Shown here in pieces: positions 4,906 to 20,225 of a stretch of DNA of 64,000 bases. The translations under genes and the position numbers were made by a program. The first letter of the stretch is position 1, and every line of letters starts with the position of its first letter. The stretch comes from Skermanella mucosa (GTDB taxonomy: Bacteria; Pseudomonadota; Alphaproteobacteria; Azospirillales; Azospirillaceae): NCBI RefSeq assembly GCF_016765655.2, contig NZ_CP086106.1:2724501-2788500 (forward strand). Direction: 5' to 3'. The notes below the pieces were generated by a model. The model did no database searches, was not told where the DNA came from, and was given only the letters and a program-made list of their open reading frames with translations.

Positions 4906-6144
4906 TCAGCGCTGGCGGAATTCGTCGGGGCGGAGGTGGTGCTTCTTGAGGAGCTGGTAGAGACGCGCGCGCGAGAGGTCGAGGGCCGCGCAGACCGCCT
5001 TGATATCGCCGCTGTGGCGCAGCAGCAGTTCGCTCAGGTGGCTGCGCTCCGCCCGATCGCGGACCACGCGGTGATCATCGTCGGGGTGGGTCGGCGCGGG
5101 ATCGATGTGGGCGCGGGTATAGCGCTGGGGCAGGTCCGCGACGCGCACCGGCCTTCCGTCGAAGATATGGGCGATGTACATGCCCAGGTTCCGCAGCTCC
5201 CGGATATTGCCCGGATAGTGGTAGGTCTCCACCAGGAACCGCTTCAGTTCCGGATCCATCGTCGGCACCGGGATGCCGTTGTCTGCGCAAACTTTGCGGA
5301 TGAAGTATTCCAGCAGCAGCTGGATCTCGTCCCGCCGCTCCCGCAGCGGTGGGATCAACAGATGGCAGATGTTCAGGCGGAAGAACAGGTCCTCGCGGAA
5401 GGTGCCGTTGGAGACCATCTGCTCCAGATTGCGGTTGGTCGCCGCGATGACCCGGACATCCACCTTGGTCACCTTGTCCGAACCGACCCTCTGGATTTCC
5501 CCGACGTCCAGCGTGCGCAGCAGCTTGACCTGGGCGAGCGGCTCCAGTTCCCCGACCTCGTCCAGGAAGATCGTGCCGCCATTGGCCTCCTCGAACCTGC
5601 CCTTGCGGTCCGCCGTCGCACCGGTGAAGGCGCCTTTCGAGTGTCCGAACAGTTCGGATTCGATCACGCCGCTGGGCAGGGCTCCGCAGTTGACGGCGAC
5701 GAACTTGTCGCGCTTGCTGTTAAGATGGATGATCCGCGCGAACAGTTCCTTGCCCGACCCGGTCTCCCCCTCCAGCAGGACGGTGAGCTGGGACGGCGCG
5801 ATGCGGGCGATCCGGTCCAGGTTGGCCGCGATCTGGTGGTTGGCGCCCAGGACGCCTTCGAGCTCCAGGTTCGCGCGGCCGCGGGACCCGACGGCGGGCC
5901 GCATCTGCTCGTTCACGGCGGTCGGCGCGGGCAGCGACAGGGTACAAAGGTGGAGGTAGGCCGCCCGCAGGGTGTTCAGCTCGCTCAGGAACTCGTGCTG
6001 CTCAAAGTCGAATAATCTTGAGTTGCCGAGAACCTTGAACTTGAGGGCTTCGATCCGGGCGATGCATTCATTGATGTGATCGCTGCTGCTGTCGGCGAAA
6101 ATCCCCGCGGAATAAGGGCTTGGCTGACGGTAATCATCGTCCAT
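4906..6144 (-). CDS. Sigma-54-dependent transcriptional activator (AAA+ / Fis-type HTH)
   Basis: The protein is a bacterial enhancer-binding protein that remodels RNA polymerase-sigma-54 using ATP. A short N-terminal region of about 110 residues with no recognised receiver, GAF or PAS domain precedes a full AAA+ domain. This has Walker A GETGSGKE, the sigma-54 contact loop ELFGHSKGAFTGA, Walker B GGTIFLDEVGEL and arginine fingers in FREDLFFRLN. The C-terminus is a Fis-type helix-turn-helix (GDIKAVCAALDLSRARLYQLL). The start is placed at MDDDYRQ (412 residues); the frame is open for 43 more codons upstream but these are low-complexity. It is divergent from the outer-membrane protein operon, with a sigma-54 promoter candidate between them, so it likely controls that operon. 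Its signal is unknown. Confidence 0.9.
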   Translation of the reverse strand: MDDDYRQPSPYSAGIFADSSSDHINECIARIEALKFKVLGNSRLFDFEQHEFLSELNTLRAAYLHLCTLSLPAPTAVNEQMRPAVGSRGRANLELEGVLGANHQIAANLDRIARIAPSQLTVLLEGETGSGKELFARIIHLNSKRDKFVAVNCGALPSGVIESELFGHSKGAFTGATADRKGRFEEANGGTIFLDEVGELEPLAQVKLLRTLDVGEIQRVGSDKVTKVDVRVIAATNRNLEQMVSNGTFREDLFFRLNICHLLIPPLRERRDEIQLLLEYFIRKVCADNGIPVPTMDPELKRFLVETYHYPGNIRELRNLGMYIAHIFDGRPVRVADLPQRYTRAHIDPAPTHPDDDHRVVRDRAERSHLSELLLRHSGDIKAVCAALDLSRARLYQLLKKHHLRPDEFRQR

Positions 6145-6207
6145 GGCGCGCGGGTGCATGTGGTTGGGCGGGTGTGGCGGCGCGGTCGGTGGCGGGCCTG
6201 ATCGAAC

Positions 6208-6223
6208 CGGAACGGTGCGTGCA
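6208..6223 (+). promoter_or_regulatory. Sigma-54 (-24/-12) promoter candidate for the TolC-like operon
   Basis: The sequence CGGAACG-GTGC-GTGCA matches the sigma-54 consensus TGGCACG-N4-TTGCA, with the invariant GG at 6209-6210 and GC at 6221-6222 in the required spacing. It points toward the first outer-membrane protein gene, and transcription would start near 6234. It lies in the 216-base gap between the divergent sigma-54 activator and that operon. Confidence 0.6.
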
Positions 6224-6360
6224 ATTTTCCGCCGGTCCACCCCGCCCGCTAGATCTACTCGCAACCGGATCAATTTGTCTACCTACAAAGGCTTGCCGTT
6301 CCCCCTTCGAAATGTCATCAATCGCTCCTGATCTCATTGTGCTTGAGAAACCAGGCGCTG

Positions 6361-8244
6361 ATGCAAGCTCTTGTTGGAAGAATCCGTGGAGCGAGTTTGA
6401 TCAGGTTGCAACAGGCTCTGTCATGCCTGTTGCTGGCCCTGCTGCCGTTTACCCTGGCCGTCCCCGCCCATGGGCAGGCCATGGATGGCGGCGCGTTCGA
6501 TCCCGTCGCCATGGTCAGGCTCGCCGCCTCGGGATCGGCGACCGGCGTTCGGCGCTTGCTCGACAGTCTCGCCCCACGGGAGATCACCCTGGGGATCGTC
6601 GCCGATACCCTGCTGCGCGAGAATTTCGGCTTGCTGGCAGCGCGTGAGGCGATCAACGCGGCGGGCACGCAGATAACCCAGAAGGAAGCTGCTTTCGATC
6701 TCAACCTGGTCAGCTCGGTCAGTCTCAGCTTCAACAAGACGGCGGACCGATTCGAGACGATCGGCCGCCCCCGGACCGCCGACACCGACCTTACCCGTGA
6801 CGACGACGGCGACGGCATACCGGATTTCGTCCAGGGCAACACGGGTACCGTTGAAGAGGTGGACGGAGAGAAAGTCCCCTGCGTCTTCGAGGATGACGAA
6901 CTGATCAACGGCGGCGTCGGGCCGGGTCTGTGCGGCCAGGAGCCGCAATATTCGGAGCGGGAGGAAGCGGCCAGCCTCGAGGGGCCGCCCACCAAGCGCC
7001 TGACGACCACGGTCGGCGTGTCCAAGATGTTCGCCTTCGGGGGCCAGGGCAGCCTGTCGATCAGTTCCATCTTCAACAGCAAGGCCGGCGCCCAGGCACC
7101 GGCGCTTACCCGGCCGATCTCGGCGACCGACCCGTTCGGCTGGGGCGACAAGCTGTTCTGGACCAGCTCGGCGTCTCTGTCGGCGACCATGCCGCTGCCC
7201 TACACCAAGGGGTTCGGCAAGACCGGATCGCCGGAGAACTTCGGCGTCGAGGCCGCGCGAAGCGGCAGCCGGCGGGCCGTGTTCGCGGAACAGGCGGCCC
7301 GCAACGCGACCCTGGCCGAGGCGGCCCAGCTCTACTGGGACATGATCCGCAGCCTCCAGGACATCCGGATCCTGAACGAGCAGAAGGCGGTCCTGGACCA
7401 GCGGCGCGCCAGGATCGAGCGGCTGATCGGCACCGGGACCGTCACCAACTACGAACTCGGCCAGATCCAGCAGGAACTTGCCTCCTTCGCCCTGCGGGAG
7501 GAGGCCGCCTGGACCCAGTACCTGCTGCGGTCCAACTCCCTGCTGACCCTGATGTCGGCCGACCCCGACCTGGTGCTGATCCCGGCCGACGCGGAGGCGC
7601 TGCTGTCCGAGTCCGTGCCCGAACCGCCGACCGACGCCTACGACCGCGCGCTGGTCGGCCATCCGGAGATCATGGCGGCGCAGGAGGATCTGGAACTGGC
7701 CAAGCTGTCGCTGGCCTTCCGTGACAACCAGGCGGCACCCGACATCGACCTGGTGGTGACGGCGCAGCTCACGCAGAGCGACCTGTCCTTCGGGTTCGGC
7801 AATCCGGCCGATGCGCTGATGAACCTTTCGAGGCCGGACAAGACCAACATCTTCATCGGCGTTCGCTATCTGTATCCGCTCGGCAACCAGGCCGCCCGCG
7901 CCGCCCTGAGCCGGGCCCGTATAGACGAGCGCAACGCCTTCGATCGGGCGCGCCAGACCAGGCAGAAGATCGTCAATTCGGTCGACCGGGCGCTCGCCGA
8001 CATCCGCGGGGCCGAATCCCTGATGCTGGTCAGCAGGGGCGACATGGAACTGGCGGGTTTCGCCTATGAGCGCATCGTCGACGAGCGGGAGCGCGGGCTC
8101 GCGACGGAGTTCGAGGTGGTCAACCGCTACCAGGACGTCCTGGCGGCCCGTCTCAACGAGGCGAGCGCCAGGGTGGAGATGCACAAGGCCTGGATACGGC
8201 TGAGCGCCGCCCAGGGCACGCTGGAGGAGGACCTGTCGCGATGA
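6361..8244 (+). CDS. TolC-like outer-membrane efflux protein 1 with Ca-binding-type loop
   Basis: This 627-residue protein begins with a basic region, a hydrophobic signal segment and an AHGQA cleavage site. The body has the two alpha-helical coiled halves of outer-membrane factors such as TolC (first half ending near AEAAQLYWDMIRSLQDI, second around NSVDRALADIRGAESLML) and strand-like stretches such as SASLSATMPLPYTKGFG. It is about 150 residues longer than typical TolC. The extra length includes an acidic loop DLTRDDDGDGIPDF that matches the DxDxDGxxD calcium-binding pattern, and a nearby pair of cysteines. It is first in a four-gene operon; its stop overlaps the next start (ATGA). The ATG at 6361 is preferred over an upstream TTG because it gives a normal signal peptide. 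It likely forms an export duct. Confidence 0.8.
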   Translation: MQALVGRIRGASLIRLQQALSCLLLALLPFTLAVPAHGQAMDGGAFDPVAMVRLAASGSATGVRRLLDSLAPREITLGIVADTLLRENFGLLAAREAINAAGTQITQKEAAFDLNLVSSVSLSFNKTADRFETIGRPRTADTDLTRDDDGDGIPDFVQGNTGTVEEVDGEKVPCVFEDDELINGGVGPGLCGQEPQYSEREEAASLEGPPTKRLTTTVGVSKMFAFGGQGSLSISSIFNSKAGAQAPALTRPISATDPFGWGDKLFWTSSASLSATMPLPYTKGFGKTGSPENFGVEAARSGSRRAVFAEQAARNATLAEAAQLYWDMIRSLQDIRILNEQKAVLDQRRARIERLIGTGTVTNYELGQIQQELASFALREEAAWTQYLLRSNSLLTLMSADPDLVLIPADAEALLSESVPEPPTDAYDRALVGHPEIMAAQEDLELAKLSLAFRDNQAAPDIDLVVTAQLTQSDLSFGFGNPADALMNLSRPDKTNIFIGVRYLYPLGNQAARAALSRARIDERNAFDRARQTRQKIVNSVDRALADIRGAESLMLVSRGDMELAGFAYERIVDERERGLATEFEVVNRYQDVLAARLNEASARVEMHKAWIRLSAAQGTLEEDLSR

Positions 8245-10286
8245 GCCTGCCCGCAGCCCCCGCCCTCGCCGCTCTCCTGTCACTGGCGCTGGTCCCCGGC
8301 CCGCTTGCCGCCCAGCAGCCGATGGCGGCCGAGCCCCCGGCCGGGATGCCGGCGGGGCTTTTCACCAGCGATCCGGCGCGCATCGACGACGAGCGCGGCG
8401 CAAACGCCGTGGTCGGGAAGACCCGTGCGGCCCTCGCCCGGACCGGGGTCCTGTTCGCCCCGGAGCAGACCCGGGAACTGGCCCTGCGCGAGGCGGCGCT
8501 GACGGCATTGCAGCGCAATCTCGACGTCAAGCGGATCGGGCTGAACAAGTCGGTGGCCCAGCGCACCCTGGTCGAGGCGGAAGCGGTCTTCGACCCGGTG
8601 TTCATCCTGGCGGCGAACGCTTCCCTGTCCAACAGCTTCGAGCGGATCGAGCGGCCCATTCAGTGGAAGCCCGCGACGCAGGAATATGTCCGGGGTCAGC
8701 AGATCCTGACGGGCACCCGGACGGACGATATCTTCCTCTGCGGCACCATGGACGACATCCTGAGCCAGCCGGCGGAACTCCAGACCAATTTCCTGCGGGG
8801 CCGGATGATCGCGCCGGACGCGAACGGCCAGTGCCATGTCCGGGCCCTGCCGTCCACCGCCCCGGTGGCGCTGGTCGCCTTCGACAAGGAGCGGGTCGCC
8901 GGGTACTATCCGTTCCGCAAGGAGGCAAGCACCAAGAGCCCGAATGGCCAGACCGAGACCTATACCGGGACCGGCGGCATATCCCAGCGGCTGCCCTGGG
9001 GCGGCAACCTGGACCTTACCGTCGTCACCACCTACCGCGACGCCTATTACGTCAACAATCCCGACGATCCCTCGACCAGGGTATACGGTTCCTACGGGCG
9101 CCCCTGGACCTCGCGCGCGACTTTGTCCGGCAGCCATCCACTCCCCTACACGCGGAACTTCCGAGAGGGAGACGAGAACCGGCTGGCGATCGACACGGCC
9201 CGCCTCAACATCGACGTCGCCGACTTCGCGGTGCGCGGCGTGGTCAACCAGACATTGCTCGGCGTCGATACCCTCTACTGGACCCTGGTCGGCGCGATCC
9301 AGCGGCTGGACGCCGCGTCGGGCTCCGTGGCGCTGGCGGAGGAGAGCGCCGCGCGCATGCAGCGCCGGATGGAACTGGGTCTCGCCAGCGAGAGCAACCG
9401 CGGCCAGGTCGTGGCACAGATGGAGCGGCTGCGCGCCGTCCAGCAGCAGCTCTTCGGCGACTATCTCACAGCGTCCGAGTCCCTCCGCGAACTGCTGGAC
9501 GAGCAGGACGATGCGTTGCTGCTGCCGATCGAGTACAGCGCCGCGCTGGACCAGCCGCCCGAGGTTCCGCCCCCATCCGGCGGAGCGGGCGGGCTGTCGG
9601 CCCGGGTGCTGGACAGCCCCGAATACCTGAGGTCGGAAACGGCGATCCGGATCGCCCTTCGGGTGCGGGAGACCAGGGATGCGCAGACCCGTCCGGACGT
9701 GACGGCCAGCGGTTCCCTACAGCTCAGCCAGAGCAACGCGGTCTTCGGCTATGCCAGCGTGACCGAATCGCTCGGCAGCCTGATCAGCTACGACAGCGCT
9801 TCCCTCAGCATCGGCGTGCTTTACCGCAGGCCGGTCGGCAACCGCGCCGCCAAGGCGGCCCTGGCCGGCGTCGATCACGACATCAAGCGGCAGACCCACT
9901 TGCTGCATCAGGTCGAGCGCCAGATCCGCAGCGACTACGAGACCGCCCGGATCCAGCTCGCCAGCGCCCGTCAGCGGATCGACGACACCGCCAAGCGCCT
10001 CGCCCTCGCCCGCGACCTCCACGACAGGGCCGCCCGCCTGGAAGCCGGCGGAGTCGTGACCGTCTACGAGACGATCGAACGCCTCGGCACCCTGCTGGAG
10101 GCGCGTCTCGGCCACATCCAGGCGCGGATCGACGCCCGCATCGCGGAGAGCAGGATGCTGGCCAGCATCGGTGCCCTGGCCGAGCGGTACGGGGAGGGAG
10201 CGGCACAAACCCGCGAGGATCGGGAACGCATCGCCCTGCTCCGCGGCACCGGCGCGCTCGCCGCCTTCGGGGAGCCGCCGCGATGA
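8241..10286 (+). CDS. TolC-like outer-membrane efflux protein 2
   Basis: The 681-residue product has a signal peptide (hydrophobic segment ending PLAAQQ) and the helical-barrel repeats of TolC-type outer-membrane factors: first half ending in a coiled region around GVDTLYWTLVGAIQRLDAA, second half from about SIGVLYRRPVGNRAAKAAL. The barrel-strand region LPWGGNLDLTVVTTYRDAYY and the motif HPLPYTRNF match the other two paralogues. A large insert near residues 150-215 contains two cysteines that could pair in the periplasm or outside. The start overlaps the stop of gene 1 and the stop overlaps the start of gene 3, so all are translationally coupled. It probably acts with its paralogues and a HlyD-type adaptor encoded nearby. 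Confidence 0.8.
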   Translation: MSLPAAPALAALLSLALVPGPLAAQQPMAAEPPAGMPAGLFTSDPARIDDERGANAVVGKTRAALARTGVLFAPEQTRELALREAALTALQRNLDVKRIGLNKSVAQRTLVEAEAVFDPVFILAANASLSNSFERIERPIQWKPATQEYVRGQQILTGTRTDDIFLCGTMDDILSQPAELQTNFLRGRMIAPDANGQCHVRALPSTAPVALVAFDKERVAGYYPFRKEASTKSPNGQTETYTGTGGISQRLPWGGNLDLTVVTTYRDAYYVNNPDDPSTRVYGSYGRPWTSRATLSGSHPLPYTRNFREGDENRLAIDTARLNIDVADFAVRGVVNQTLLGVDTLYWTLVGAIQRLDAASGSVALAEESAARMQRRMELGLASESNRGQVVAQMERLRAVQQQLFGDYLTASESLRELLDEQDDALLLPIEYSAALDQPPEVPPPSGGAGGLSARVLDSPEYLRSETAIRIALRVRETRDAQTRPDVTASGSLQLSQSNAVFGYASVTESLGSLISYDSASLSIGVLYRRPVGNRAAKAALAGVDHDIKRQTHLLHQVERQIRSDYETARIQLASARQRIDDTAKRLALARDLHDRAARLEAGGVVTVYETIERLGTLLEARLGHIQARIDARIAESRMLASIGALAERYGEGAAQTREDRERIALLRGTGALAAFGEPPR

Positions 10287-12238
10287 CGCCTCGCCGCATC
10301 CTGCTGACGCTGGCGAACGCCACACTGATCCTGGCGCAGGCCGTTCCCGCGTCGGCGCAGTCTCCCGGTCCCGACCTGATCGCCCGCCACGGTGCCGCCG
10401 TCACGGAACTGGTGAGGCGGCAGATCGCGGAGCAGCCCGGCGCCCGCGACCTGGACCGGATCGCCCTGATCGGCGATCTGCTGAAGCGCCGTCCCGACAT
10501 CGCCGGCGCGCGGACGGTGCAGCCGATCGACCGCAGGACCGCGGTGGCCAGCGGACTGGGCAACAACCTGCGCCTCGCGATCGGCCTGACGACGCCTGAA
10601 CGCGCCGCCGCCCTGTCCCGCGAGGCGGACGCCGTGTTCAACCCCGTGCTGGACCTGACGATCGGCTATGGCCGGACGGACGCCGAGCACCGCACCCGCG
10701 TCGGAAAGGCGATCACCAAGGCGGTCAATGCCGACGGCTTCAACATCAATTCGCCCTTCAAGAACCTGCCGCCGAGCGAGAACGAAGGGCAGGCCCAGAT
10801 CAAGGACATGAAGCTGCGGCCGATCAAGGGCGGCGAATTGATCGAGCTGCCGATCGAGGCGACGCCGGGCCGGACGTTCGGCAGCCCCGAGGAGAGCCTG
10901 AACTACACGCTCCAGATCACGCAGGAGTTGCCCTGGGGCGGCACCCTCTCGATCACCGATCGGACCGCTCAGCGCGAGGTCTATTACCGGGCCGGGTATT
11001 ATTGGGAGGACGGGATGTGGAGCACCAACCTGTCCGGCAGCCTGAACACGCCCCTGCCCTTCACCAAGGATTTCGGGTCCGACAACAAGAAGAACGCGGC
11101 ATCGCGCAGCGCCGCCGCCGTGGCCGAACGGGCCGACTGGGATCTCCAGGTACTGCTCAACACGATCCTGCTGGAAATCGATACCGCCTATTTCGATACC
11201 GTCCGCCGCCTGGAAGCGCTGGAAACCACCGCCGCCAACCGCGACATGATCGTCCGGCAGCAGGAAAGGATGGACCGCCTCTATGCGCTGAACCAGACCA
11301 CCCGCCTTCAGAAGGCGCAGATCGACGCCGAGGCGGCCAGGGCCCGGGTCCGGATCGAACAGTCGCTCAGCGACTATGTCGCCGCGTCGCAGGCCCTGTC
11401 GCTGCTGATCGGCGAGCCCTCGGTCATCGGCGCGGACGCCATCTATCTGCCGGTCGACTACGAGGACGACCTGGCGCAGGCCGTTCCGGCCGACCTGGAG
11501 ACGGCGCTCCGCACCGCCCGGGAAAGCCGGCCCGATTTCAAGGTGGACGACATCAACAGGACGCTGCGCGACATCAACGAGGCCCTGGCCCGTAACCAGG
11601 CGCGGCTGGATCTCCGCTTCGTGGCCAGTGTCACCGCCGGGCAGAACGGAACGACCTACGGCTATGCCGACCCCCTGAAGAGCCATACCGGGATAGCGTT
11701 GCCGGACAGCCTCAGCCAGAGTTACGGCCTGGGCCTGTCCTATCCGTGGGCGAATCGGTCCGCGGACGCAGGCGCCGACATCGCGCGGCTCGGCACCCGG
11801 GACCAGGATTATGCCACGCAGTCCCTCCAGAACCGCGTGCGCCGCGAGATCACCGAACGGTTGGCGGCCGTGCAGGCGGCCCGCGCCCGCGTCAAGGCGG
11901 GTGCCGCCGAAGTCGACAACCTGGAGACCTCGGTCGCCAGCCTGGAGCGCCAGCAGGCGCTTACCGGCACGGTGTCGGAGGACGAGTTGATCCAGGCCAC
12001 GCGGCGCCTGCTCTCCGCCCGGCTCGCCCTGACCGGGGCCCGGGTCGAGGCCAAGCAGGCCGAGAGCGGGCTGCTGTTCGCCCAGGGGACCATCGCAGGC
12101 GCGCTGGCGGAACAGACCGTCGCCAGCCAGTTCGACCGCAACCGCCTCTCGCTGCTGGCCGATGCCGGCCACCTCTCTTTCTTCAGACCCGCCGAGTCCC
12201 GGACGGACCGGGTCGCCAAACCGGAAGGTAAACCATGA
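10283..12238 (+). CDS. TolC-like outer-membrane efflux protein 3
   Basis: The 651-residue protein starts MTPRRILLTLANATLILAQA, a clean signal peptide ending ASAQS. It has the same architecture as its two upstream paralogues: an extended N-terminal part, barrel strands around ELPWGGTLSITDRTAQREVYY, the motif TPLPFTKDFG, and two helical halves rich in Ala, Arg and Glu. It has no cysteine pair in the insert, unlike paralogues 1 and 2. The start is the ATG that overlaps the previous stop; a much longer open frame exists upstream but is a shadow of gene 2. The ATGA overlap with the following ATP-grasp-like gene ties the outer-membrane proteins to a presumed cytoplasmic protein in one operon. Confidence 0.8.
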   Translation: MTPRRILLTLANATLILAQAVPASAQSPGPDLIARHGAAVTELVRRQIAEQPGARDLDRIALIGDLLKRRPDIAGARTVQPIDRRTAVASGLGNNLRLAIGLTTPERAAALSREADAVFNPVLDLTIGYGRTDAEHRTRVGKAITKAVNADGFNINSPFKNLPPSENEGQAQIKDMKLRPIKGGELIELPIEATPGRTFGSPEESLNYTLQITQELPWGGTLSITDRTAQREVYYRAGYYWEDGMWSTNLSGSLNTPLPFTKDFGSDNKKNAASRSAAAVAERADWDLQVLLNTILLEIDTAYFDTVRRLEALETTAANRDMIVRQQERMDRLYALNQTTRLQKAQIDAEAARARVRIEQSLSDYVAASQALSLLIGEPSVIGADAIYLPVDYEDDLAQAVPADLETALRTARESRPDFKVDDINRTLRDINEALARNQARLDLRFVASVTAGQNGTTYGYADPLKSHTGIALPDSLSQSYGLGLSYPWANRSADAGADIARLGTRDQDYATQSLQNRVRREITERLAAVQAARARVKAGAAEVDNLETSVASLERQQALTGTVSEDELIQATRRLLSARLALTGARVEAKQAESGLLFAQGTIAGALAEQTVASQFDRNRLSLLADAGHLSFFRPAESRTDRVAKPEGKP

Positions 12239-13290
12239 GAATCGGCCTGATCGCGCCCGCGGCTTCCCCACTCGGCCGCCGACTCCATGCCCGGCTGCGC
12301 CGGCGGCTGGGGAATGAGGTGCCTTGGTTCGACGCCTCGATGCCGGAAGGAACCCGGATGAGCGTGGGCCGGACCGGCATCCGCTGGGACGGTCATGACC
12401 TCGACCGGTTCGACGCCCTGTTCGTCCATGGGTTCCGCTACGAGGACCCGGTGATACCGGCGGCCGACCCCGGCAACGAACCCGGTGCCGACTGGTCCCT
12501 GTGGCAGTCGGAGCATGTCCGGCGGCAGCAGCGTTACAGCTTCCTCTACAGCATGCTGTCCCGGCTCGAAGACGTGCCGGTGCGGCTGTACAACGGCCCG
12601 TCCGGGCACCTCGCGGCCTTCTCGCGCCACCACCAGCTGGAGCGCCTGGGCCGCGGCGGGCTGGGGGTCGCCCCCGCGATCTGCACCAACGACCCCGTCA
12701 CCGCACGGGACTTCGCCCGGTCTGCGGCTGATCAGGGCCGCGCCGTGGTGTGGCGGACGGCGACCGGGAAATGTGCTTGGCAACTGTTCCGCGACCGCCA
12801 GCGCGAGCACCTGATGGGGGCCGACAAGCCGCCAATCCTGCTGGCCCCGGCCGTGGACGGGCCGTTGCGCCGGGCCTACGCGATCGACGGCCGGACCGTG
12901 CTGACGCTGGAGTGCGCCGTCCCGTCGGACGATGCCCTGGAGCGCCTGGAGGTCTTCGCTCCCGTCGCCGCGCCGCAGGCCGAGGTCGAGACCCATGCGG
13001 CCGGGAGCGCGCTCACCCTCTCCGGCCTGCGCTGGGGCAGCGTCCTTTACGTAGCCGGCCCTGACGGCCCGGTCATCTATGACGTGGACGCGGATCCGGC
13101 CGTGACGGACCTTCCCGGGGGCATGGGCGAGCACCTGACCGAGTGCCTGGCCGCCACTCTATCGGGGGAGCCGCCGCCCGCGGCCGACGGGCTCGCGGCG
13201 GCTCCCAGGGAAAGCCTCTTCCTGCGCCGCATGCTCCGCATCCAGTTCGACATCGAACGGACCAAGCATGCCGCCGCACCTCCCGCATAA
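12235..13290 (+). CDS. Degenerate ATP-grasp-like protein, 351 aa
   Basis: The protein begins MRIGLIAPAASPLGRRLHAR, a Rossmann-like start seen in RimK-type ATP-grasp proteins. The middle resembles the ATP-grasp fold of peptide-modifying ligases: AICTNDPVTARDFAR (compare the TNDPE..R segment of microviridin-type ligases), then strand-rich GRAVVWRTATG and LRRAYAIDG. Key residues look altered. The usual Lys of the 'KP' strand is absent, and the metal-binding E-x-N-x-x-P is replaced by YDVDADP. So it may be inactive, a binding partner, or a divergent enzyme. It is last in the sigma-54-type operon with three TolC-like proteins, and an intact ATP-grasp gene lies 4 kb downstream. The fold assignment is tentative. 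Confidence 0.5.
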   Translation: MRIGLIAPAASPLGRRLHARLRRRLGNEVPWFDASMPEGTRMSVGRTGIRWDGHDLDRFDALFVHGFRYEDPVIPAADPGNEPGADWSLWQSEHVRRQQRYSFLYSMLSRLEDVPVRLYNGPSGHLAAFSRHHQLERLGRGGLGVAPAICTNDPVTARDFARSAADQGRAVVWRTATGKCAWQLFRDRQREHLMGADKPPILLAPAVDGPLRRAYAIDGRTVLTLECAVPSDDALERLEVFAPVAAPQAEVETHAAGSALTLSGLRWGSVLYVAGPDGPVIYDVDADPAVTDLPGGMGEHLTECLAATLSGEPPPAADGLAAAPRESLFLRRMLRIQFDIERTKHAAAPPA

Positions 13291-13434
13291 AGGTTAATGG
13301 TCGTAAATCATTAGCGTCATGGTTGCTTAAAATGCCATGCTTCGGCATAGTGACCGTGCGGCCCTGCTCCGCGGCGCGGCGGCTCGACGCCGTCGCGTCC
13401 CACACATCCCCTGGTCCGGACATCCCGTCGAGCG

Positions 13435-14766
13435 ATGATCGATTCAAACCAAGACAGAACCATGCTGGTCCGCGACCAGGGACGCAGGGCCGACGCCGGC
13501 GGCGCGGCGAACGCACCGGCAGGCAATCCGGACGGAAAGCTGATCTGCCTGGATCCGTCGCAGATCGATGGCAGCCCTGCCCAGGTCGTGGTCCCGCTGG
13601 CCGGCGGAAAGACGGTGACGATAGGGCGGAGCGACGCCAGTTCGTTCGTCGTGGCGTCCCGCAAGCTCTCGCGCCAGCACGCCAAGCTGTTTCCCGGCGA
13701 GGGCACCTGGGGAGTCGAGGATCTCAACAGCACCAACGGCGTCTATGTCAACGGCCACAAGGTCAACACGATCTGGCTGAAGCACAACGACGAAGTCCGG
13801 CTAGGCTCCCTGGCCTTCCGCTTCGAGCTGGACCGCCCTCCCGCCAACGCGGCGGAGCGCGGGCGCGCCCTGCCCGTCCACCACGACGACGACCTGTCGG
13901 AGCGGACCATGATGGTCGGCAGCCTGGGCGCCGGCAAGGCCGTGCTCGATGCCGTCCGAAAGGTCGAGGCTCCCGTCAAGCTGAAGGTCGACGAGGATGA
14001 TGACGGCCCCGGGGAGGAGCGCGAGCGCTCCGGCATCCGCGGCAAGCTGATCCTGAGCGGGGTCGTGGCCGCCGTGCTCGCGGGCCTGGGCATCGGCGCC
14101 GCGGTCTATTATCCGGTCCACAAGAAGAAGCAGTTCGTCGCCCAGGCGATCGAGCATTCCTCGGCGGTCCGCAAGCGGGTGATTGATCGCGCATCCCAGT
14201 ATGCCGGCGGCAACCAAGCCGCATCCTTCGATCAGGATTTGAACGAGCTGGCGGAAGCTATCGCCGACAGCGGCCGCCTGCTCGCCTCCGAACAGAGCGC
14301 TCCCTTGGCCGACCTGGCGGCCCGCATGAAGTTCCTGTCCTTCGAGCGGGAGTTCCTGCCGCTGCTCGCCAAAGGCGATCTCGCCAGCCTGCGCCGGCTG
14401 ACAGAACGGCTGGGCGCCGACCTGGAGACGACGGCCGGCCGGGTTCCCGCCAATGCCGAGCACGGCTCCACCGACGGGCTCGCGGTGGTCCGCGAACTGG
14501 TCAAGCTGGCACGGATCCTGATCGACCTGCGTGCCCTCTCGGCCGAGTTCCCGCAGGTGTCGAAGCTCGCCCCGGCCCAGCCGCCGCGCGACCGGATACA
14601 GGCCCTGGATGCGCTGAAGCTTGACTTCACCAGGATCCGGCGGGAGACGAACAGGTACCTGTCGGTGGATTACGTGCTGTTCAACTCGGCAGTGAAATCG
14701 GTCGAGGACCGCGATCTGCCGCTGCTCAACCAGTGGAAAGAATTCCTGGGGTCCGGCCCTGGGTAA
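13435..14766 (+). CDS. FHA-domain membrane protein
   Basis: The 443-residue protein has an N-terminal FHA domain at about residues 45-125 with all signature elements: GRSDASSF, the SRQHAKL loop, and the DLNSTNGVYVNG strand that contacts phosphothreonine. An acidic linker follows, then a single membrane helix (about 205-227, LILSGVVAAVLAGLGIGAAV), then a long helical C-terminal region of about 210 residues with basic and acidic heptads, presumably periplasmic. It would bring a phosphorylated partner to the inner membrane. It sits between the outer-membrane protein operon and the cyclase-FHA gene, 144 bases after the former and 19 before the latter. The ribosome-binding site is weak. The phosphorylated partner is unknown, and no kinase is in the window. 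Confidence 0.8.
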   Translation: MIDSNQDRTMLVRDQGRRADAGGAANAPAGNPDGKLICLDPSQIDGSPAQVVVPLAGGKTVTIGRSDASSFVVASRKLSRQHAKLFPGEGTWGVEDLNSTNGVYVNGHKVNTIWLKHNDEVRLGSLAFRFELDRPPANAAERGRALPVHHDDDLSERTMMVGSLGAGKAVLDAVRKVEAPVKLKVDEDDDGPGEERERSGIRGKLILSGVVAAVLAGLGIGAAVYYPVHKKKQFVAQAIEHSSAVRKRVIDRASQYAGGNQAASFDQDLNELAEAIADSGRLLASEQSAPLADLAARMKFLSFEREFLPLLAKGDLASLRRLTERLGADLETTAGRVPANAEHGSTDGLAVVRELVKLARILIDLRALSAEFPQVSKLAPAQPPRDRIQALDALKLDFTRIRRETNRYLSVDYVLFNSAVKSVEDRDLPLLNQWKEFLGSGPG

Positions 14767-14785
14767 CGAGCGAGGTGGCGCGGTC

Positions 14786-15682
14786 GTGACGGTCCAGTCC
14801 GGCGAATCCATGGCGGTAATGTTCGCGGACGTCTGCGACAGCACCCGCCTTTACCAGGTCCTGGGGGATGCCGCCGCGCACGCCCTCACGGAACGGTGCG
14901 TCCGCCAGATCATCGAAGCGACCGAGCGCTATGCGGGAACCGTGGTCAAGACCATGGGCGATGGGGCGCTCAGCACCTTCCCCTCTGCCGACACCGCCTA
15001 TTGCGCCGCCGCCCATATCCAGGAAGCGCTGCGCGGCACGGAGCCGAAGGTCAGGATCGGCTTCACCATCGGCCCGGTGATCGTCACGCCGGGCGACGTG
15101 TTCGGCACCACGGTCAACCTCGCGTCCCGCCTCGCCGCCCTCGCCAGTCCCGGCGAGGTGCTGATGACCCGCGCCTGCGTCGACGCCCTGCACCCGGCCT
15201 ACCGGCCCAACACCCAGCGGCTCGATTCGGCAGTCGTCAAGGGTGGCATCGACGCCGTCGAGATCTACCGCACCCTGGGCGATCCGGAGAACGTGACGGT
15301 GGCGGCCGGCCAACTCGACGTGTCCAGCGGCAAGCGCCGCGGCATCCTGATCCTGACCCACCGCGGACGCCAGCTCCGCCTGGACACCGGCTCGGCGCCG
15401 GTGCTGATGGGGCGTGACGGCGGGTGCGGGCTGGTGATCAACAGTGACTGGGCCTCCCGCCGACACGCGACGCTGGAGATCATGAACGGCCGCTTCACCC
15501 TGACCGACCACAGCACCAACGGCACCTTCTGCCTGGACGAAAGCCAGCGCCTGCTGGTGCTGAAACGGGAGCCGACCTACCTGCTGACCTCCGGCCTGAT
15601 CTCCCTCGGGATCGCGCCGGCCGAGGACCCGGACAACGTGGTCCGGTACCGCTGCGGCACGATCGAGGGGGAGACCGGCTGA
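14786..15682 (+). CDS. Class III adenylate/guanylate cyclase fused to FHA domain
   Basis: The 298-residue protein starts at GTG behind GAGGTGG. Residues 8-170 form a class III nucleotide cyclase domain: metal-binding FADVCDS, the KTMGDGALSTF motif with the second metal Asp, and the GTTVNLASRL segment carrying the Asn and Arg that stabilise the transition state. All the catalytic residues I can place are present, so it is probably active. Residues about 195-280 form an FHA domain (MGRDGGC, SRRHATL, DHSTNGTF). The fusion suggests that cyclic nucleotide synthesis responds to a phosphothreonine signal. It is 19 bases downstream of the FHA membrane protein, in the same direction, and convergent with the PP2C phosphatase gene, which could reverse that signal. 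Confidence 0.88.
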   Translation: MTVQSGESMAVMFADVCDSTRLYQVLGDAAAHALTERCVRQIIEATERYAGTVVKTMGDGALSTFPSADTAYCAAAHIQEALRGTEPKVRIGFTIGPVIVTPGDVFGTTVNLASRLAALASPGEVLMTRACVDALHPAYRPNTQRLDSAVVKGGIDAVEIYRTLGDPENVTVAAGQLDVSSGKRRGILILTHRGRQLRLDTGSAPVLMGRDGGCGLVINSDWASRRHATLEIMNGRFTLTDHSTNGTFCLDESQRLLVLKREPTYLLTSGLISLGIAPAEDPDNVVRYRCGTIEGETG

Positions 15683-15696
15683 CCCCGGGCCGGCGG

Positions 15697-16458
15697 TCAG
15701 TCGAACCGGACCAGCGCCACGGTCACATTGTCGCGGCCGCCATGGGCGTTCGCCTCCTCCACAAGACGGCGGCAGGCCTCCTCCGGCGCCAGCGGTTCGA
15801 TCAGTATGTCGATGATCGTGTCGTCCGGAACCATGCCGTTCAGGCCGTCGGAACACAGCAGGAAAGTGTCGCCCGCCCGGGTCTCCTGGACGGAGACATC
15901 AGCTTCGGCGTCGTCCGCAACACCCAGCGCGCGCATGATGATGTTTCGGTTCGGCGGGGCGCCGGACCTTCCTGCATCGACCCACGCTTGGTAGAGGCTG
16001 TGATCGTGGGTGATCTGGTCCAGCCGTCCGCCGCGCAGACGGTATAGCCGGCTGTCGCCGACATGGAAGACGATGGCCGGCGACAAGCCAGACGGCAGCC
16101 AGAACCCGACGATGGTCGTGCCCATCCCCCGGTTGTCCGGCAGGCCGCGCTCGTGGTTCAGGCCGACGATTCGCTGATTGGCCCGATGGACCGCGGTGCG
16201 CACGATCTCGACCGACCCCTCGGTTCCCGTCCGGTCGAGGCGGTCCGGCACCGGTTCGTATTCAAGGATGAAGTCGTTCACCGCCTCGATCGCGGTCCGG
16301 CTGGCGATGTCGCCGCCGACATGGCCGCCCATGCCGTCTGCCACGAGCACGAGGCCGAGGTCCGGATCGATCTGGAACGAGTCCTCGTTCTGGGAGCGGA
16401 CGCGGCCGACATCCGTGAGGCCGGCATATTGAACTGAGCGGGGAGTGGTGCCTGTCAT
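15697..16458 (-). CDS. PP2C-family serine/threonine protein phosphatase
   Basis: The 253-residue protein is a stand-alone PPM/PP2C phosphatase. It carries RVRSQNEDS, VADGMGGHVGG, HVGDSRLYRLR, LLCSDGLNGM and GGRDNVTVAL, covering the metal-binding Asp residues of the family, and has normal length. It would remove phosphate from Ser or Thr, most likely on partners of the two FHA proteins encoded next to it. The start is set at MTGTTPRS; an ATG 12 bases upstream (MISC) is the alternative. The gene is convergent with the cyclase-FHA gene and divergent from the Gly-rich peptide gene. No Ser/Thr kinase partner lies in this window. Confidence 0.9.
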   Translation of the reverse strand: MTGTTPRSVQYAGLTDVGRVRSQNEDSFQIDPDLGLVLVADGMGGHVGGDIASRTAIEAVNDFILEYEPVPDRLDRTGTEGSVEIVRTAVHRANQRIVGLNHERGLPDNRGMGTTIVGFWLPSGLSPAIVFHVGDSRLYRLRGGRLDQITHDHSLYQAWVDAGRSGAPPNRNIIMRALGVADDAEADVSVQETRAGDTFLLCSDGLNGMVPDDTIIDILIEPLAPEEACRRLVEEANAHGGRDNVTVALVRFD

Positions 16459-16668
16459 ACAAGAAATCATCCTGATCGGGGGCCGGCGCCCTTCGCGAGG
16501 CAGCCCGGTCCACCCTGAGTTAATGTCATTCCCGTCCGAGTGACTCAAGATAAATATAAAATTGGCGATAACGGCGCTCTCCCGGGGTGCAACCGTCCGG
16601 GGTCTTCCGATCACGGGCACCCTCCCGGACGAAGCCATGGACGAAGCCCGCAACAAATGGTACATCGA

Positions 16669-16697
16669 TTGACACAGCACCCGCCACGACATATGCG
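16669..16697 (+). promoter_or_regulatory. Sigma-70-type promoter candidate for the Gly-rich peptide
   Basis: A perfect -35 box TTGACA (16669-16674) is followed after exactly 17 bases by TATGCG (16692-16697), a partial -10. Transcription would begin near 16704, about 67 bases before the peptide start. It lies in the 312-base gap (16459-16770) between the divergent phosphatase and peptide genes. I see no other feature in that gap beyond an AT-rich patch near 16545-16565. Confidence 0.45.
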
Positions 16698-16770
16698 CGC
16701 GGCCGCAGATTTCCTCCAGGTTGCAAGCGGTGCACGAAATGGCTAAGGCATGGCGGCAGGGAGTTTGTCC

Positions 16771-17019
16771 ATGAGCACTGACCTGAATTTCGACCAGAAC
16801 GGGAAATCCGGCGGCGACGCCTTTGGCCATGCCCAATCCGTCTCGGCCGGGATCGGCGGCTCGGGTTCGGGATCGGCCGGCGGATTCGGTGCCTCCTTCG
16901 GCCAGGCCGACGCCTTCGGGTCCGGGGGCGACGCCTACTCGTCCGCCGCCGCGGGTGGTGCGCTGGGTGGATCGGCCGCCGACAATACCGCCATCGGTTC
17001 CATCAACATCAGCTTCTGA
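16771..17019 (+). CDS. Gly/Ser/Ala-rich 82-aa peptide, candidate RiPP-like precursor
   Basis: The peptide starts MSTDLNFDQNGKSGGDAFGH behind AGGGAG at 8-base spacing; an in-frame ATG 21 bases upstream is less well placed. After a polar leader of about 12 residues the rest is almost only Gly, Ser, Ala, Asp, Phe and Gln. The module GGDAFG recurs in degenerate form (QADAFG, GGDAYS), and the peptide ends INISF. There is no cysteine, no signal peptide and no membrane helix. It lies 33 bases before an intact ATP-grasp gene and near adaptor, isomerase and outer-membrane export genes. This is the arrangement of a small modified and secreted peptide, with the ATP-grasp as the possible modifier. It could also be a structural or adhesive secreted protein. 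Confidence 0.65.
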   Translation: MSTDLNFDQNGKSGGDAFGHAQSVSAGIGGSGSGSAGGFGASFGQADAFGSGGDAYSSAAAGGALGGSAADNTAIGSINISF

Positions 17020-17052
17020 CCGGTCGGCGACGACCAAGCGGGGATGCCTGGA

Positions 17053-18021
17053 ATGACCGCGAAGATCGCCCTGTTCGCCAACCACGACAGCGCCCAGATC
17101 GCCGAGATCGCCGCCGAGGTGACGGCGCTGGGGGCCGAGCCGGTCGTCCTGGACATCCAGATCGGGCGGCTGGGCAAGCCGACGGTCGGGATCGGGGCGC
17201 CGGGTTCCGCCGCGGCATCGCGCTGGGGCGACGTGGATTTCGGCGATATCCGGGCTGTCCATATCCGCTGCACGGCACCCCGCACCCTGCCCGTCCTGCC
17301 GCCCGTGATGAACGAGGCGACTTATGCCGAGTACCGCGTGTCCTACATCCAGGAACAGGCGTTGAACGCGGCGACCTACGGCTTCTTCGAGCATCTGCAC
17401 ATGACTGGGCGGCTGGTGATCAACCGGCTGACCACGGCTTACGTCGACCACAACAGCAAGGGCCAGTTCTACGAGAAGCTGCGCGCCGCCGGCTTCCGGG
17501 TACCGCGGTCGCTCAGCACGAGCTGCCCGGACGAGGCGGCGCGCTTTTTGGACGAGGTGGGGGAGGCGGTGGTCAAGCCAGCCATCGGCGTCGGTTCCAC
17601 CCGCAGCGTGACGGCCGAGGACCGCGCGCGGCTGGACGAACTTCTGATGTGCCCGGCGCTGTTCCAGCATCGCGTGCCCGGCTCAACCATCCGTATCCAC
17701 ATCGTCGGGGATCGGGTCGTGCTGCCGCTCCGCATCCTGGCCGACGGCGTCGACTCGCGGACCGCGACCCGCGGATTCGAGCCGGTGACCCTGGACCCGG
17801 TGGAGGAGGCCGCCATCGTCCGGGCCAACCGCGCCCTGGGCCTGCACTACGCCGCCTGGGATGCCATCCTGGACGACGACGGCAAGCTGACCTATCTCGA
17901 CTGCAATCCCGGCCCGTTCGTCATGTGGCTGCCGCCCGAGCACCGCCACACCGTATTCGGCGCCCTCGCACGATATCTCCTCGCATTCGCCCGGACCGGC
18001 ACGCTGGAGACGGCGGCCTAG
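17053..18021 (+). CDS. RimK-type ATP-grasp enzyme
   Basis: The 322-residue protein is an ATP-grasp ligase of the RimK/glutathione-synthetase type. It has an N-terminal Rossmann-like part (MTAKIALFANHD), then the ATP-grasp core with the nucleotide-binding EAVVKPAIGVGSTRSV, the strand STIRIHIVGDRVVLPLR with an Arg typical of the fold, and the metal-binding end LDCNPGPF. All the expected residues are present, so it is probably active and joins a carboxylate to an amine or hydroxyl through an acyl phosphate. The Gly-rich peptide encoded immediately upstream on the same strand is the obvious candidate substrate; this is inference from position. The ATG at 17053 has GGGGA at good spacing; one 9 bases upstream is less likely. 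Confidence 0.8.
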   Translation: MTAKIALFANHDSAQIAEIAAEVTALGAEPVVLDIQIGRLGKPTVGIGAPGSAAASRWGDVDFGDIRAVHIRCTAPRTLPVLPPVMNEATYAEYRVSYIQEQALNAATYGFFEHLHMTGRLVINRLTTAYVDHNSKGQFYEKLRAAGFRVPRSLSTSCPDEAARFLDEVGEAVVKPAIGVGSTRSVTAEDRARLDELLMCPALFQHRVPGSTIRIHIVGDRVVLPLRILADGVDSRTATRGFEPVTLDPVEEAAIVRANRALGLHYAAWDAILDDDGKLTYLDCNPGPFVMWLPPEHRHTVFGALARYLLAFARTGTLETAA

Positions 18022-18033
18022 GCGCCGCCGGCC

Positions 18034-19473
18034 TCACTCCTCCTTCTGGAAGAACCGGGAGGCCGGGGCGAACAGGATCTCGATCAGGCGCTTCTCGCCG
18101 GTCTTGATCTCCGCCGTACCCTCCAGGCCGATCTCCAGGGGCTTGGTAACGCCGTTCAGCCCGGTCACCGTCTCGCGCTCCAGGGCCACCTTGACCTGGT
18201 ACATGGACTGACCGCCGGGCTGGCTGTCCGGCTTGGCCGCGATGTCGGCGACGATGCCGTTCTGGACCCCGTAATCCTCGCCCGGATAGGCGAAATACTT
18301 GATCTGCACCCGCTGGCCGCGCCTGATCCGGCCGATATCGCGGTTCTTGATCAGCACATGGGCTTCCAGCGGCGCCGTGTTCCGCACCATGGTGAACATC
18401 GGCATGCCGGGATTGATGATCGTGCCTCGCTGGACATGGACCGCCGTGACGACGCCGTCCACGACGCTGCTGTAGAGCGCCTTTTCCCCGTCGTAGCGGA
18501 CGCCAGGGACCAGCGTGCGGGACTCCAGCAGGCGGTTGGTCAGCTCGTCGATACGGTCGCGGATCAGGGCTTGGTCGCGCTGCCTGGCGCTCTTCAGGTT
18601 CTCGATCTCGTTGTCCAGCCGGGACTGCGAGAAGGTTTGCGCCATCTGGGCCCGTTCGCCCCGTGCCGTCTCCAGCGCCAGCCTGACGTTCTGGATGTCG
18701 GATTCGGCGTTCACCTGGGCGCGCTGAAGGTCGCTGACCCGGGTCTGGGCGCGTTGAAGCTCGACCTGCGGAATATCGCGCATGGCATAGAGCTGCTGTC
18801 TTACGCCCAGGTCCTGCCGGGCGTTCGCCAGATCCTCGTCGATGCCCTGGCGATTGCGCTGGGTGATCTGAAGCTGGATCTCGATCTGGCGGATGCGGTT
18901 ATCGATCGCCCCCTGCTCGGTGGCGCGGCGCCGCTCCAGGTTCAACCGGTCCAGCTCCAACTGACCAAGGCGGAAATCGTACTCCTTGGCCGCTTCCCGT
19001 TCCTGCTGCTGCAGATCGGCGATCTGGCGCTGCATCGCCTCCTGCTCGGGCGTGGTCGCCGCCCGGATCTTCTCCTGGATCGTGGCGAGCGGGTCGCCGG
19101 CGAATACCGTCGAGTTCTCGCCCGCCTCCACCGCCTCCACCAAGCCGCCGCCGACGGCCTGAATCACCATGGCCTGGCGCTGGAGCATCAATGGCGCCTC
19201 CACCATCGTGTCCTTGGACGCGAAGAAGGAATAGATCAGCATACTCAGCAGCGTGAAGAACAGAACATAGACCGGGGCGCGGAACAGCGGGTTGGGCGAG
19301 GAGAACAGCAGCGTCGCCGCCTTCAGCGGATGCCGGTCATCGTCCCGCGACCGCGTGGCCGCACCCTTGCCGGCCGGTTTCGGTGAGACCCGCTTCTTGG
19401 CGGGCTTCTGGATCTTCGGAGGTTTCGGGGGCTTGGCCGGTGCCACGGAACGGCCCCGATCCGGCTTGCCCAT
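18034..19473 (-). CDS. HlyD-family periplasmic adaptor with Pro/Lys-rich cytoplasmic tail
   Basis: The 479-residue protein has a basic, Pro-rich cytoplasmic N-terminus (about 1-55), a single membrane helix (about 65-88, PVYVLFFTLLSMLIYSFF) and the split lipoyl/barrel of membrane-fusion adaptors: QAVGGGLVEAVEAGENSTV, then SSVVDGVVTAVHVQRGTIIN. A very long coiled coil of about 180 residues lies between the halves. It would bridge an inner-membrane pump to an outer-membrane duct, here presumably the TolC-like proteins. It lies 2 bases after the PpiC-type gene, so they form one unit. No ABC or RND pump gene is adjacent, so the inner-membrane energiser must be elsewhere or the system is unconventional. 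The start is MGKPDRG, just past the preceding stop. Confidence 0.85.
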   Translation of the reverse strand: MGKPDRGRSVAPAKPPKPPKIQKPAKKRVSPKPAGKGAATRSRDDDRHPLKAATLLFSSPNPLFRAPVYVLFFTLLSMLIYSFFASKDTMVEAPLMLQRQAMVIQAVGGGLVEAVEAGENSTVFAGDPLATIQEKIRAATTPEQEAMQRQIADLQQQEREAAKEYDFRLGQLELDRLNLERRRATEQGAIDNRIRQIEIQLQITQRNRQGIDEDLANARQDLGVRQQLYAMRDIPQVELQRAQTRVSDLQRAQVNAESDIQNVRLALETARGERAQMAQTFSQSRLDNEIENLKSARQRDQALIRDRIDELTNRLLESRTLVPGVRYDGEKALYSSVVDGVVTAVHVQRGTIINPGMPMFTMVRNTAPLEAHVLIKNRDIGRIRRGQRVQIKYFAYPGEDYGVQNGIVADIAAKPDSQPGGQSMYQVKVALERETVTGLNGVTKPLEIGLEGTAEIKTGEKRLIEILFAPASRFFQKEE

Positions 19474-19475
19474 GT

Positions 19476-20225
19476 TCAGGCCGGCGCGACGCAGACCTGA
19501 TGGCGCAGCCACTCCTCGAAGATGTGGTCCTTGATCTGCTTCGTCAGGGCGTCGTTCAGCTTGGTCACGGTCCGCGAATAGACCTTGTAGATGGTCCAGA
19601 GACCGTTCTCGGAGAACGGTCCGATGATCTCGTTCTCACCGCAGGCGAAGGCGCGTTCGTCCACCTCGGTCGGCAGCATGCCGCGCTTGAGGTTGCCTAT
19701 GTAGCCGCCGCTCAGCTTCGTGTTGTCATCGACCGAGTAGAGCCTCGCCAGTTCCACGAAGTCGGCCTGCCGGGCGCCGACCGCGGCCAGGGCACGATCG
19801 GCGTCGGCCCGGGTGCGGCAGGCGATCCGCGCGATCGAGACCGACGTGAAGCGGGCGCTGTTCTGTCGGTAGTGGTTCTGAACCAGGTCCTTGGTCACCA
19901 CAAGGTCGCGCAGCCGCTCGCGCCGCATATCGGCCGCCAGGGTGTCCAGCCACTGCTCCCGCGTCAGGCCGAAGTGCTTGAGATAGGAAGCGAAGGCGTT
20001 CTCGTCCCACAACGCCAGCATCGTCTTCCGGCCATGGACCTTCTCCTCGATCTCGGCGTCGGTCAGGCTTACGCCATGCTCCTCCAGCTTGTACTCGACC
20101 ACCCGCCGTTCGATGATTTCATAGATGGCGGTGCGGAAGGTCCCCTTGGCCTTGAGGTGAAGGATCACGTCGGCGACCGTGATCGGGTCGCCTTTGACGG
20201 TGGTAACCGCAGTGCCAAGTTCCAT
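19476..20225 (-). CDS. PpiC/parvulin-type peptidyl-prolyl isomerase without signal peptide
   Basis: The 249-residue protein has a SurA/PrsA-like helical N-terminal part (residues 1-115) and a parvulin-like domain: SVSIARIACRTRADAD, DFVELARLYSVDD, LSGGYIGNLKRGMLPTEVDE, NEIIGPFSENGLWTIYKV. Unlike SurA or PrsA it has no signal peptide or lipobox, so it should stay in the cytoplasm. It heads a two-gene unit with the HlyD-type adaptor. Stand-alone cytoplasmic PpiC-like proteins next to HlyD-type genes are seen in peptide maturation and export clusters; here it may hold or fold the Gly-rich peptide before export, which is inference. GGTGGAAC precedes the ATG. Confidence 0.78.
   Translation of the reverse strand: MELGTAVTTVKGDPITVADVILHLKAKGTFRTAIYEIIERRVVEYKLEEHGVSLTDAEIEEKVHGRKTMLALWDENAFASYLKHFGLTREQWLDTLAADMRRERLRDLVVTKDLVQNHYRQNSARFTSVSIARIACRTRADADRALAAVGARQADFVELARLYSVDDNTKLSGGYIGNLKRGMLPTEVDERAFACGENEIIGPFSENGLWTIYKVYSRTVTKLNDALTKQIKDHIFEEWLRHQVCVAPA

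Follow-up and report, generated by a model that had tools for sequence, protein, structure and literature searches.

Between positions 4906 and 20225 of the 64,000 nt stretch of Skermanella mucosa DNA analysed here (contig NZ_CP086106.1, positions 2,724,501-2,788,500; referred to as the window) lie genes for a sigma-54 activator, three TolC-like outer-membrane factors (OMF1, OMF2 and OMF3), two ATP-grasp proteins (GRASP and its paralogue GRA2), a protein with an FHA domain and one transmembrane segment (FHA-TM), a nucleotide cyclase-FHA fusion, a PP2C phosphatase, a small Gly/Ser/Ala-rich peptide, a HlyD-type membrane-fusion protein and a PpiC-type protein. Do these genes form one system, and what would such a system do? 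An initial annotation of the window had proposed that all of them modify and secrete the peptide. The gene set itself was borne out by the lists of open reading frames (ORFs) and by searches of Pfam and NCBIfam. In our view the locus probably encodes a graspetide-like modification and a dedicated type I export of small Gly-rich peptides, under sigma-54 and phosphothreonine control.

This view is carried by the common distribution of the parts (genomes are labelled G, loci L). Among 82 genomes of the family Azospirillaceae a true orthologue of GRASP (tblastn identity of at least 56%) is present in nine, and the profile of the peptide family matches exactly the same nine. Four further genomes (G012, G014, G038 and G047) contain only weak GRASP matches, of which the one in G047 is GRA2. 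GRA2 is found in ten genomes, the nine with GRASP and G047, and PpiC in eight of the nine. The Fisher values over the 82 genomes, 3e-11 for GRASP with GRA2 and 2.5e-10 for GRASP with PpiC, are too strong because relatedness among the genomes inflates them; collapsed to 13 genera they become 0.0014 and 0.014.

The block is syntenic in all five Skermanella genomes compared. In G049, G050 and G057 it is divided into three loci: the OMF trio and GRA2 with FHA-TM; PP2C with GRASP, in G057 together with peptides; and the sigma-54 activator adjoining PpiC, HlyD and an ATP-binding cassette (ABC) exporter. In G056 about 25 kb of the same contig separate the GRASP locus from the OMF operon. In these four genomes the parts are unlinked yet still occur together, which argues for a functional tie and not for chance adjacency. 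Of the two signs that the initial annotation had expected of unrelated genes, separate places were seen in G049, G050 and G057, whereas a lack of co-occurrence was not. The proposed single system is supported for the peptide, GRASP, GRA2 and PpiC, which co-occur at the level of genomes even where they are unlinked.

We also scanned 84,980 species genomes with the GRASP alignment, and since an exact short pattern was required, the 30 loci obtained are not exhaustive. By the titles of their records, from which all taxon labels are taken, they belong to Skermanella, Azospirillaceae, Magnetococcales, Gamma- and Betaproteobacteria, Planctomycetota, a Deltaproteobacterium, an Ignavibacterium and others; one metagenome-assembled genome is, by its title, Bordetella parapertussis. 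Counted by non-overlapping matches, and with several loci ending early at contig ends, the 30 loci include GRA2 in 15, FHA-TM in 14, at least one OMF in 12, PP2C in 11, HlyD in eight, PpiC in six and the sigma-54 activator in five. The ABC exporter is encoded at 40% identity or more in ten of them (four of these matches are truncated where the stretch ends), and a kinase match is seen in four, one being the source of the kinase query and two reaching 32-33% identity.

Some distant loci are nearly complete. L119 from Planctomycetota comprises sigma-54 activator-PpiC-HlyD-ABC-FHA-GRASP and GRA2-OMF-OMF-OMF within about 16 kb and is without only the peptide and PP2C, and the betaproteobacterial L118 comprises, within the stretch examined, every part except OMF, GRA2 and PP2C. 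Orthologues of the activator adjoin PpiC-HlyD in L057, L059 and L061 and PpiC-HlyD-ABC in L113, L115, L118 and L119. At the level of whole genomes, 24 other genomes with GRASP contain the peptide in 18 cases, the ABC exporter in 21 and a GRA2-type match besides that of GRASP itself in 23. The exporter gene occurs at a single place in each of the 21 except G092 (two pieces), and its presence in G396 makes 22 of 25. Across 398 evenly sampled Pseudomonadota genomes the peptide was matched (E up to 1e-3) in eight and GRASP (E up to 1e-40) in seven, all of which are among the eight. The eighth, G396, carries GRA2 and OMF genes as well as a GRASP fragment of 72.5% identity at the edge of its peptide-bearing contig. 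Plasmid spread of GRASP was considered and rejected, since the six plasmid records found all match with less than 60% identity and none covers 80%.

What is the substrate? The Gly/Ser-rich 82-aa peptide of the initial annotation is more than a chance ORF, because orthologues with conserved ends adjoin GRASP in the other four Skermanella genomes. The 42 peptides near the loci contain on average 30% Gly. All 28 aligned rows share Lys12, Gly14, Asp71, Asn72 and Thr73, which sit at the two ends and flank a variable Gly/Ser/Ala middle; conserved candidate donor and acceptor side chains (K12, D71, T73) are thus present in the precursor. Of 41 further peptides, most of which came via the family profile that favours these motifs, 39 contain K-x-G-[GA]-[DE]; DNT is present in 37, and the remaining four have DNS or DQT instead. 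Taking all 83 distinct called sequences, whose starts were set by script so that some ORFs are N-terminally too long, a single Lys is present in 62, while Pro is absent from 59 and Cys from 74. Of the four copies in the window's genome, three lie at a distance from the cluster amid unrelated genes, and G087 shows with 16 the highest number of profile matches per genome. If our reading is right, this substrate family escapes gene-cluster mining because many copies stand alone.

Peptide patterns near GRASP were not found in L102, L103, L111, L113, L115, L117, L119, L120, L125 and L128; in the genomes of L102, L103, L111, L113, L119 and L120 the profile located copies elsewhere. The peptides of L122 and L123 were recognized by pattern and missed by the profile. 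The peptides encoded by L126 and L127 are shorter and poorer in Gly but carry the same motifs at their ends; the genomes of these two loci are without a close ABC orthologue.

The ATP-grasp protein points to the kind of modification. A profile of 25 GRASP sequences matches PDB 7drm, which we take to be the graspetide enzyme PsnB, with 4.1e-40 over 275 positions, and CdnC with 4.9e-14. Nine examined positions are invariant in all 25 relatives, including K136, K175, R214, D270, D283 and N285, which presumably bind ATP and Mg, and the enzyme was therefore rightly annotated as intact. In the alignment with 7drm the position of the DFR motif is occupied by D234-S-R236 in 25 of 25, so that of the three residues only F is replaced; T-x-R at residues 212-214, also considered for this position, was ruled out by the same alignment. 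GRA2 shares 21% identity with GRASP. The ATP-grasp-like ORF at 12235 is present as annotated, but most of its catalytic positions are lost: in 13 GRA2 proteins, with counts that depend on the alignment, 12 have Arg in place of Lys175, four retain Lys136, Asp234 and Asn285 each survive in a single protein, and none has Arg236 or Asp270; Arg214 and Asp283, by contrast, are retained in 12. GRA2 looks like a pseudo-enzyme.

GRASP, with GRA2 as a putative partner subunit, would form a side-chain bond in the peptide. Lys12-Asp71 is our best guess for this bond because both residues are invariant and GRASP keeps D-S-R where 7drm has D-F-R; a bond involving Thr/Ser73 or Asp16 would be the alternative. 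Within the same system GRASP could instead ligate an amino acid or a small molecule onto the peptide, at the invariant Lys or the C-terminus, in the manner of RimK. Matches to the RimK family (TIGR00768, 4.7e-10; structures of ribosomal S6 glutamate ligase, about 5e-7) fit this idea, which is possible but in our estimation unlikely, as the nearest solved homologue is by a wide margin 7drm (4e-40) and the D-x-R position is kept as D-S-R in every relative.

Type I export of the peptide would require an ABC protein, and none is encoded within 4906-20225. In relatives an ABC exporter of 1,091-1,112 aa adjoins PpiC-HlyD. The window's genome encodes it on another replicon (C3:249386-252583, 63% identical over the same length) and S. 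rosea on plasmid pSR-1; orthologues of at least 60% identity are found in seven of the nine family genomes with GRASP. It is one of the parts missing from the initial gene list, as are a kinase at some loci and the dispersed members of the peptide family. In the two relatives scanned, Pfam recognizes two cyclic-nucleotide-binding (cNMP) matches, a C39-type domain, an ABC membrane region and an ATPase. Judged by eye with what we assume to be the catalytic Cys motif of C39, 13 full-length proteins have kept this Cys in four cases (L113, L117, L118, L128) and lost it in nine (four Skermanella, three other Azospirillaceae, two Planctomycetota); these nine lack the residue that marks a peptidase-containing ABC transporter. 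An ABC protein, a membrane-fusion protein and TolC-like OMFs, the constituents of type I secretion, are encoded together: HlyD and ABC are adjacent in L057, L059, L061, L113, L115, L118 and L119, and in L115 and L119 the OMFs are located in the same locus. The product would thus leave the cell through the cNMP/C39-like ABC protein, HlyD and OMF1-OMF2-OMF3. Next to the ABC gene of the window's genome (G000) a second HlyD gene is split over two reading frames (C3, L096:7928-9290); it is intact in L097 (S. rosea). The assembly of G079 is one chromosome-sized contig of 5.9 Mb, and a plasmid with the ABC gene may simply be missing from it.

RTX/haemolysin-type type I secretion likewise combines an ABC protein having a C39-like domain without the catalytic Cys with HlyD and a TolC-like OMF. 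The system described here shares this composition and, in Skermanella, the loss of the C39 Cys; it differs in having three OMF paralogues and cNMP domains, in the small size of its peptide substrates and in its modifying enzymes. The OMFs, annotated as oversized, are indeed larger than the TolC chains compared (627-681 versus 428-501 aa), and all three have a hydrophobic N-terminus. Together with GRA2 they form the expected four-gene operon (6361-13290), in which consecutive ORFs overlap by ATGA. In a tree of 37 OMF proteins the sequences cluster according to their place in the operon and not according to genome, with three label changes (minimum possible two) compared to a shuffled mean of 17.5; the Planctomycetota protein L119_p2 is the exception, and the deepest forks are weak. 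This grouping indicates that the triplication is old and that each member was kept, and the trio is indeed found as far as Planctomycetota. One reading of the trio is a heterotrimeric channel, another is three separate homotrimers.

Single parts of the system are of known kinds, namely ATP-grasp enzymes of ribosomally synthesized and post-translationally modified peptides (RiPPs), PpiC partners and C39-type ABC exporters. The gene set, the peptide family and the OMF trio were not found described among the literature matches listed, whose coverage largely excludes subscription papers. By analogy, the nearest precedent is rosaritide (group 21) from Micromonospora, an organism reported to lack a periplasm. 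Its cluster MirABCD consists of a precursor, a TIGR04187 ATP-grasp enzyme, a TIGR04500 PpiC-type partner and a peptidase-containing ABC protein, and the PpiC-type MirC is needed for crosslinking and was proposed to be a chaperone (PMC13097080). Both systems thus have a precursor, an ATP-grasp, a PpiC-type protein and an ABC transporter with a peptidase-type domain. The OMF trio, HlyD, FHA/PP2C, the sigma-54 gene and the pseudo-ATP-grasp were not met in the accessible part of the MirABCD description. Moreover, GRASP and PpiC from Skermanella remain under the curated cut-offs, and the PpiC match begins at position 90 of the TIGR04500 model. NCBIfam holds three families for putative peptide maturation or modification, TIGR04500, TIGR04510 and TIGR04187, to which PpiC, the cyclase and the ATP-grasp show weak matches, all under the cut-offs.

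The window's PpiC was annotated as lacking a signal peptide, and its N-terminus is in fact not hydrophobic. A function as prolyl isomerase of the peptide was rejected, given the many peptides without proline. Because of the rosaritide precedent and the proline-free majority of the peptides, this cytosolic protein may rather serve as a partner or chaperone.

The exporter itself recalls HetC from Nostoc PCC 7120, an ABC exporter with N-terminal cyclic-nucleotide-binding and C39 domains, the nucleotide domain of which binds ppGpp in vitro and is required in vivo (PMC10986499). In contrast to HetC, two cNMP matches were found in the two relatives scanned, the C39 Cys is lost in Skermanella, and there is a defined peptide family with an ATP-grasp. 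The cNMP domains might bind a nucleotide as HetC binds ppGpp, and a cyclase-FHA gene sits in the Skermanella cluster. FHA-TM, PP2C and, at some loci, a Ser/Thr kinase may set the state of the exporter. The cyclase-FHA fusion, counted as a member by the initial annotation, was dropped as a core part, since in the search of loci, the only one made for it, matches were confined to Skermanella.

Several small secreted proteins with a GG motif that share one C39-type ABC protein and have a role in biofilms are also known from Synechococcus elongatus (EbfG/PteB; PMC4997328). The likeness is one of plan, the peptide sequences being uncompared, and an ATP-grasp or an OMF trio was not met in the accessible part of the EbfG/PteB description. 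A surface or matrix role of the product, as for EbfG, is a guess. That it is a bacteriocin-like antimicrobial and not a surface, matrix or signalling peptide appears improbable to us. C39-type ABC proteins and HlyD are among the commonest families found with ATP-grasp RiPP enzymes (PMC8939145), and multiple precursor genes would suit a bacteriocin. However, inspection by eye of the dispersed copies in G000, G050, G056, G057 and G081 revealed no recurrent immunity-like small gene, and up to 16 similar matches per genome suggest bulk and not diversity of weapons.

Upstream of the three dispersed peptide genes of the window's genome lie near-perfect sigma-54 sites at -87, -77 and -76, with scores of 19, 20 and 19 from a maximum of 20; shuffled upstream regions score 19 in 0.06%. 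Outside the genus 11 first peptide genes were scanned (omitting L116, which was too short, L122, L123, L126 and L127); a site of at least 17 precedes eight and of at least 18 six of them, compared to 6% and 0.9% of the shuffles. In 30 further regions with 24 located peptide genes a site of at least 18 was found for five and of at least 19 for four, one of which (L223) repeats L118. Some lineages thus show clear sigma-54 control, while none is seen in others. The activator would turn on peptide genes scattered over the genome. Before the window's PpiC gene sigma-54 sites were sought without success. The dispersed peptide promoters of L162 and L163 have in common a GGCTAATCCT stretch that immediately precedes the -24 element and could be an activator site. 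In G087 a recurrent GGCAYR-GTWY-TTGAT element lies 49-78 bp upstream of four peptide genes (L194, L195, L198, L201) and is possibly a sigma-54 variant.

Several points weigh against graspetide-like modification and dedicated export. The evidence consists of sequence comparison, in which co-occurrence, conserved residues, sigma-54 sites and domain content were observed. GRASP reaches 70.3 bits with TIGR04187, the curated cut-off being 350, and HlyD and PpiC likewise score below theirs (Table 1). HlyD, the OMF trio, FHA-TM, PP2C and the sigma-54 activator are tied to the system by neighbourhood and not by a genome-wide search. PpiC was not found in G056, which has GRASP, and no ABC orthologue was found in G079, G056, G090, G102 and G103; G047, with a completeness of 91%, has GRA2 without GRASP or peptide. 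None of the 42 peptides contains Phhx(1,2)h, the leader motif known from graspetides, although graspetide groups without it are named in the same paper (PMC8939145). Twenty-eight peptides went into the peptide profile, partly from genomes that it later matched. The family genomes G080, G049 and G050 and the sample genomes G290 and G396 gave it no row and are all peptide-positive. Of the 24 other GRASP genomes 13 gave no row, and these are seven positives (G083, G087, G089, G095, G096, G097, G105) together with all six negatives (G091, G093, G098, G099, G101, G104), although in G098 and G099 a peptide was recognized by pattern. Before the window's own peptide gene sigma-54 sites score at most 15 of 20, and 19 of the 24 further peptide genes have none of at least 18, including most of those in G083, G086, G087 and G089. 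In 455 kb of the 30 loci nine sites of at least 19 were found, five of them 66-106 bp before a peptide gene, but shuffled loci yield three such sites too.

An extended model, in which an obligate heterotrimeric OMF channel, a dispersed sigma-54 regulon, Lys12-Asp71 stapling by an active/pseudo ATP-grasp pair and gating by a nucleotide second messenger and phosphothreonine make up one secretion system across phyla, is speculative and would rather not hold in full. Very improbable, finally, is that three independent modules (the OMF operon; PP2C-peptide-GRASP; sigma-54-PpiC-HlyD) are neighbours by chance in Skermanella: the split loci, the distance in G056 and G047 as one single-module genome would agree with it, but the parts are found together in one small set of genomes, are combined at single loci in other phyla and remain associated when collapsed to genera. 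If modification and export of the peptide, which we infer, are correct, Pseudomonadota, Planctomycetota, Ignavibacteria and others would possess a new modification and secretion system. With the OMF trio, heterotrimeric TolC channels would then become open to direct testing, and the set of ATP-grasp, pseudo-ATP-grasp and PpiC would extend partner-dependent graspetides to Gram-negatives with a clear prediction of the crosslink.

Table 1. Genes of the locus, with positions in the window and the main match or observation for each.
Feature	Position	Strand	Basis
Sigma-54 activator (AAA+)	4906..6144 or 6159	-	Sigma54_activat 3.5e-65 (Pfam)
OMF1, TolC-like outer-membrane factor, 627 aa	6361..8244	+	OEP 3e-22; tree group p1
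OMF2, TolC-like, 681 aa	8241..10286	+	OEP 3.4e-16; tree group p2
OMF3, TolC-like, 651 aa	10283..12238	+	OEP 2.7e-18; tree group p3
GRA2, apparent pseudo-ATP-grasp paralogue	12235..13290	+	TIGR04187 21.8 bits; most catalytic positions lost
FHA-TM, FHA, one transmembrane segment and C-terminal domain	13435..14766	+	FHA 5e-18; hydrophobic stretch, residue 206
Nucleotide cyclase-FHA fusion	14786..15682	+	Guanylate_cyc 6.7e-11, FHA 1.7e-10
PP2C phosphatase	15697..16458	-	PP2C_2 1.6e-12
Gly/Ser/Ala-rich peptide, 82 aa	16771..17019	+	Family alignment; one of four genome paralogues
GRASP, intact graspetide-synthetase-like ATP-grasp ligase	17053..18021	+	PDB 7drm 4.1e-40; nine positions invariant in 25/25
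HlyD-type membrane-fusion protein	18034..19473	-	TIGR01843 1.1e-33, under curated cut-off
Cytosolic PpiC/SurA-like protein	19476..20225	-	Rotamase 4.3e-10; TIGR04500 79.2 bits, cut-off 180

In the sigma-54 activator Pfam gave no domain N-terminal of the AAA+ part. A defence system was considered and rejected: PADLOC, run on nine of 12 proteins, matched the AAA part of the activator, the cyclase and PP2C, which look like shared domains. Divergent from PpiC an S10-type carboxypeptidase-like gene is encoded at 20390-21943 of the window. It is found at that place in Skermanella loci only and lies probably outside the system.

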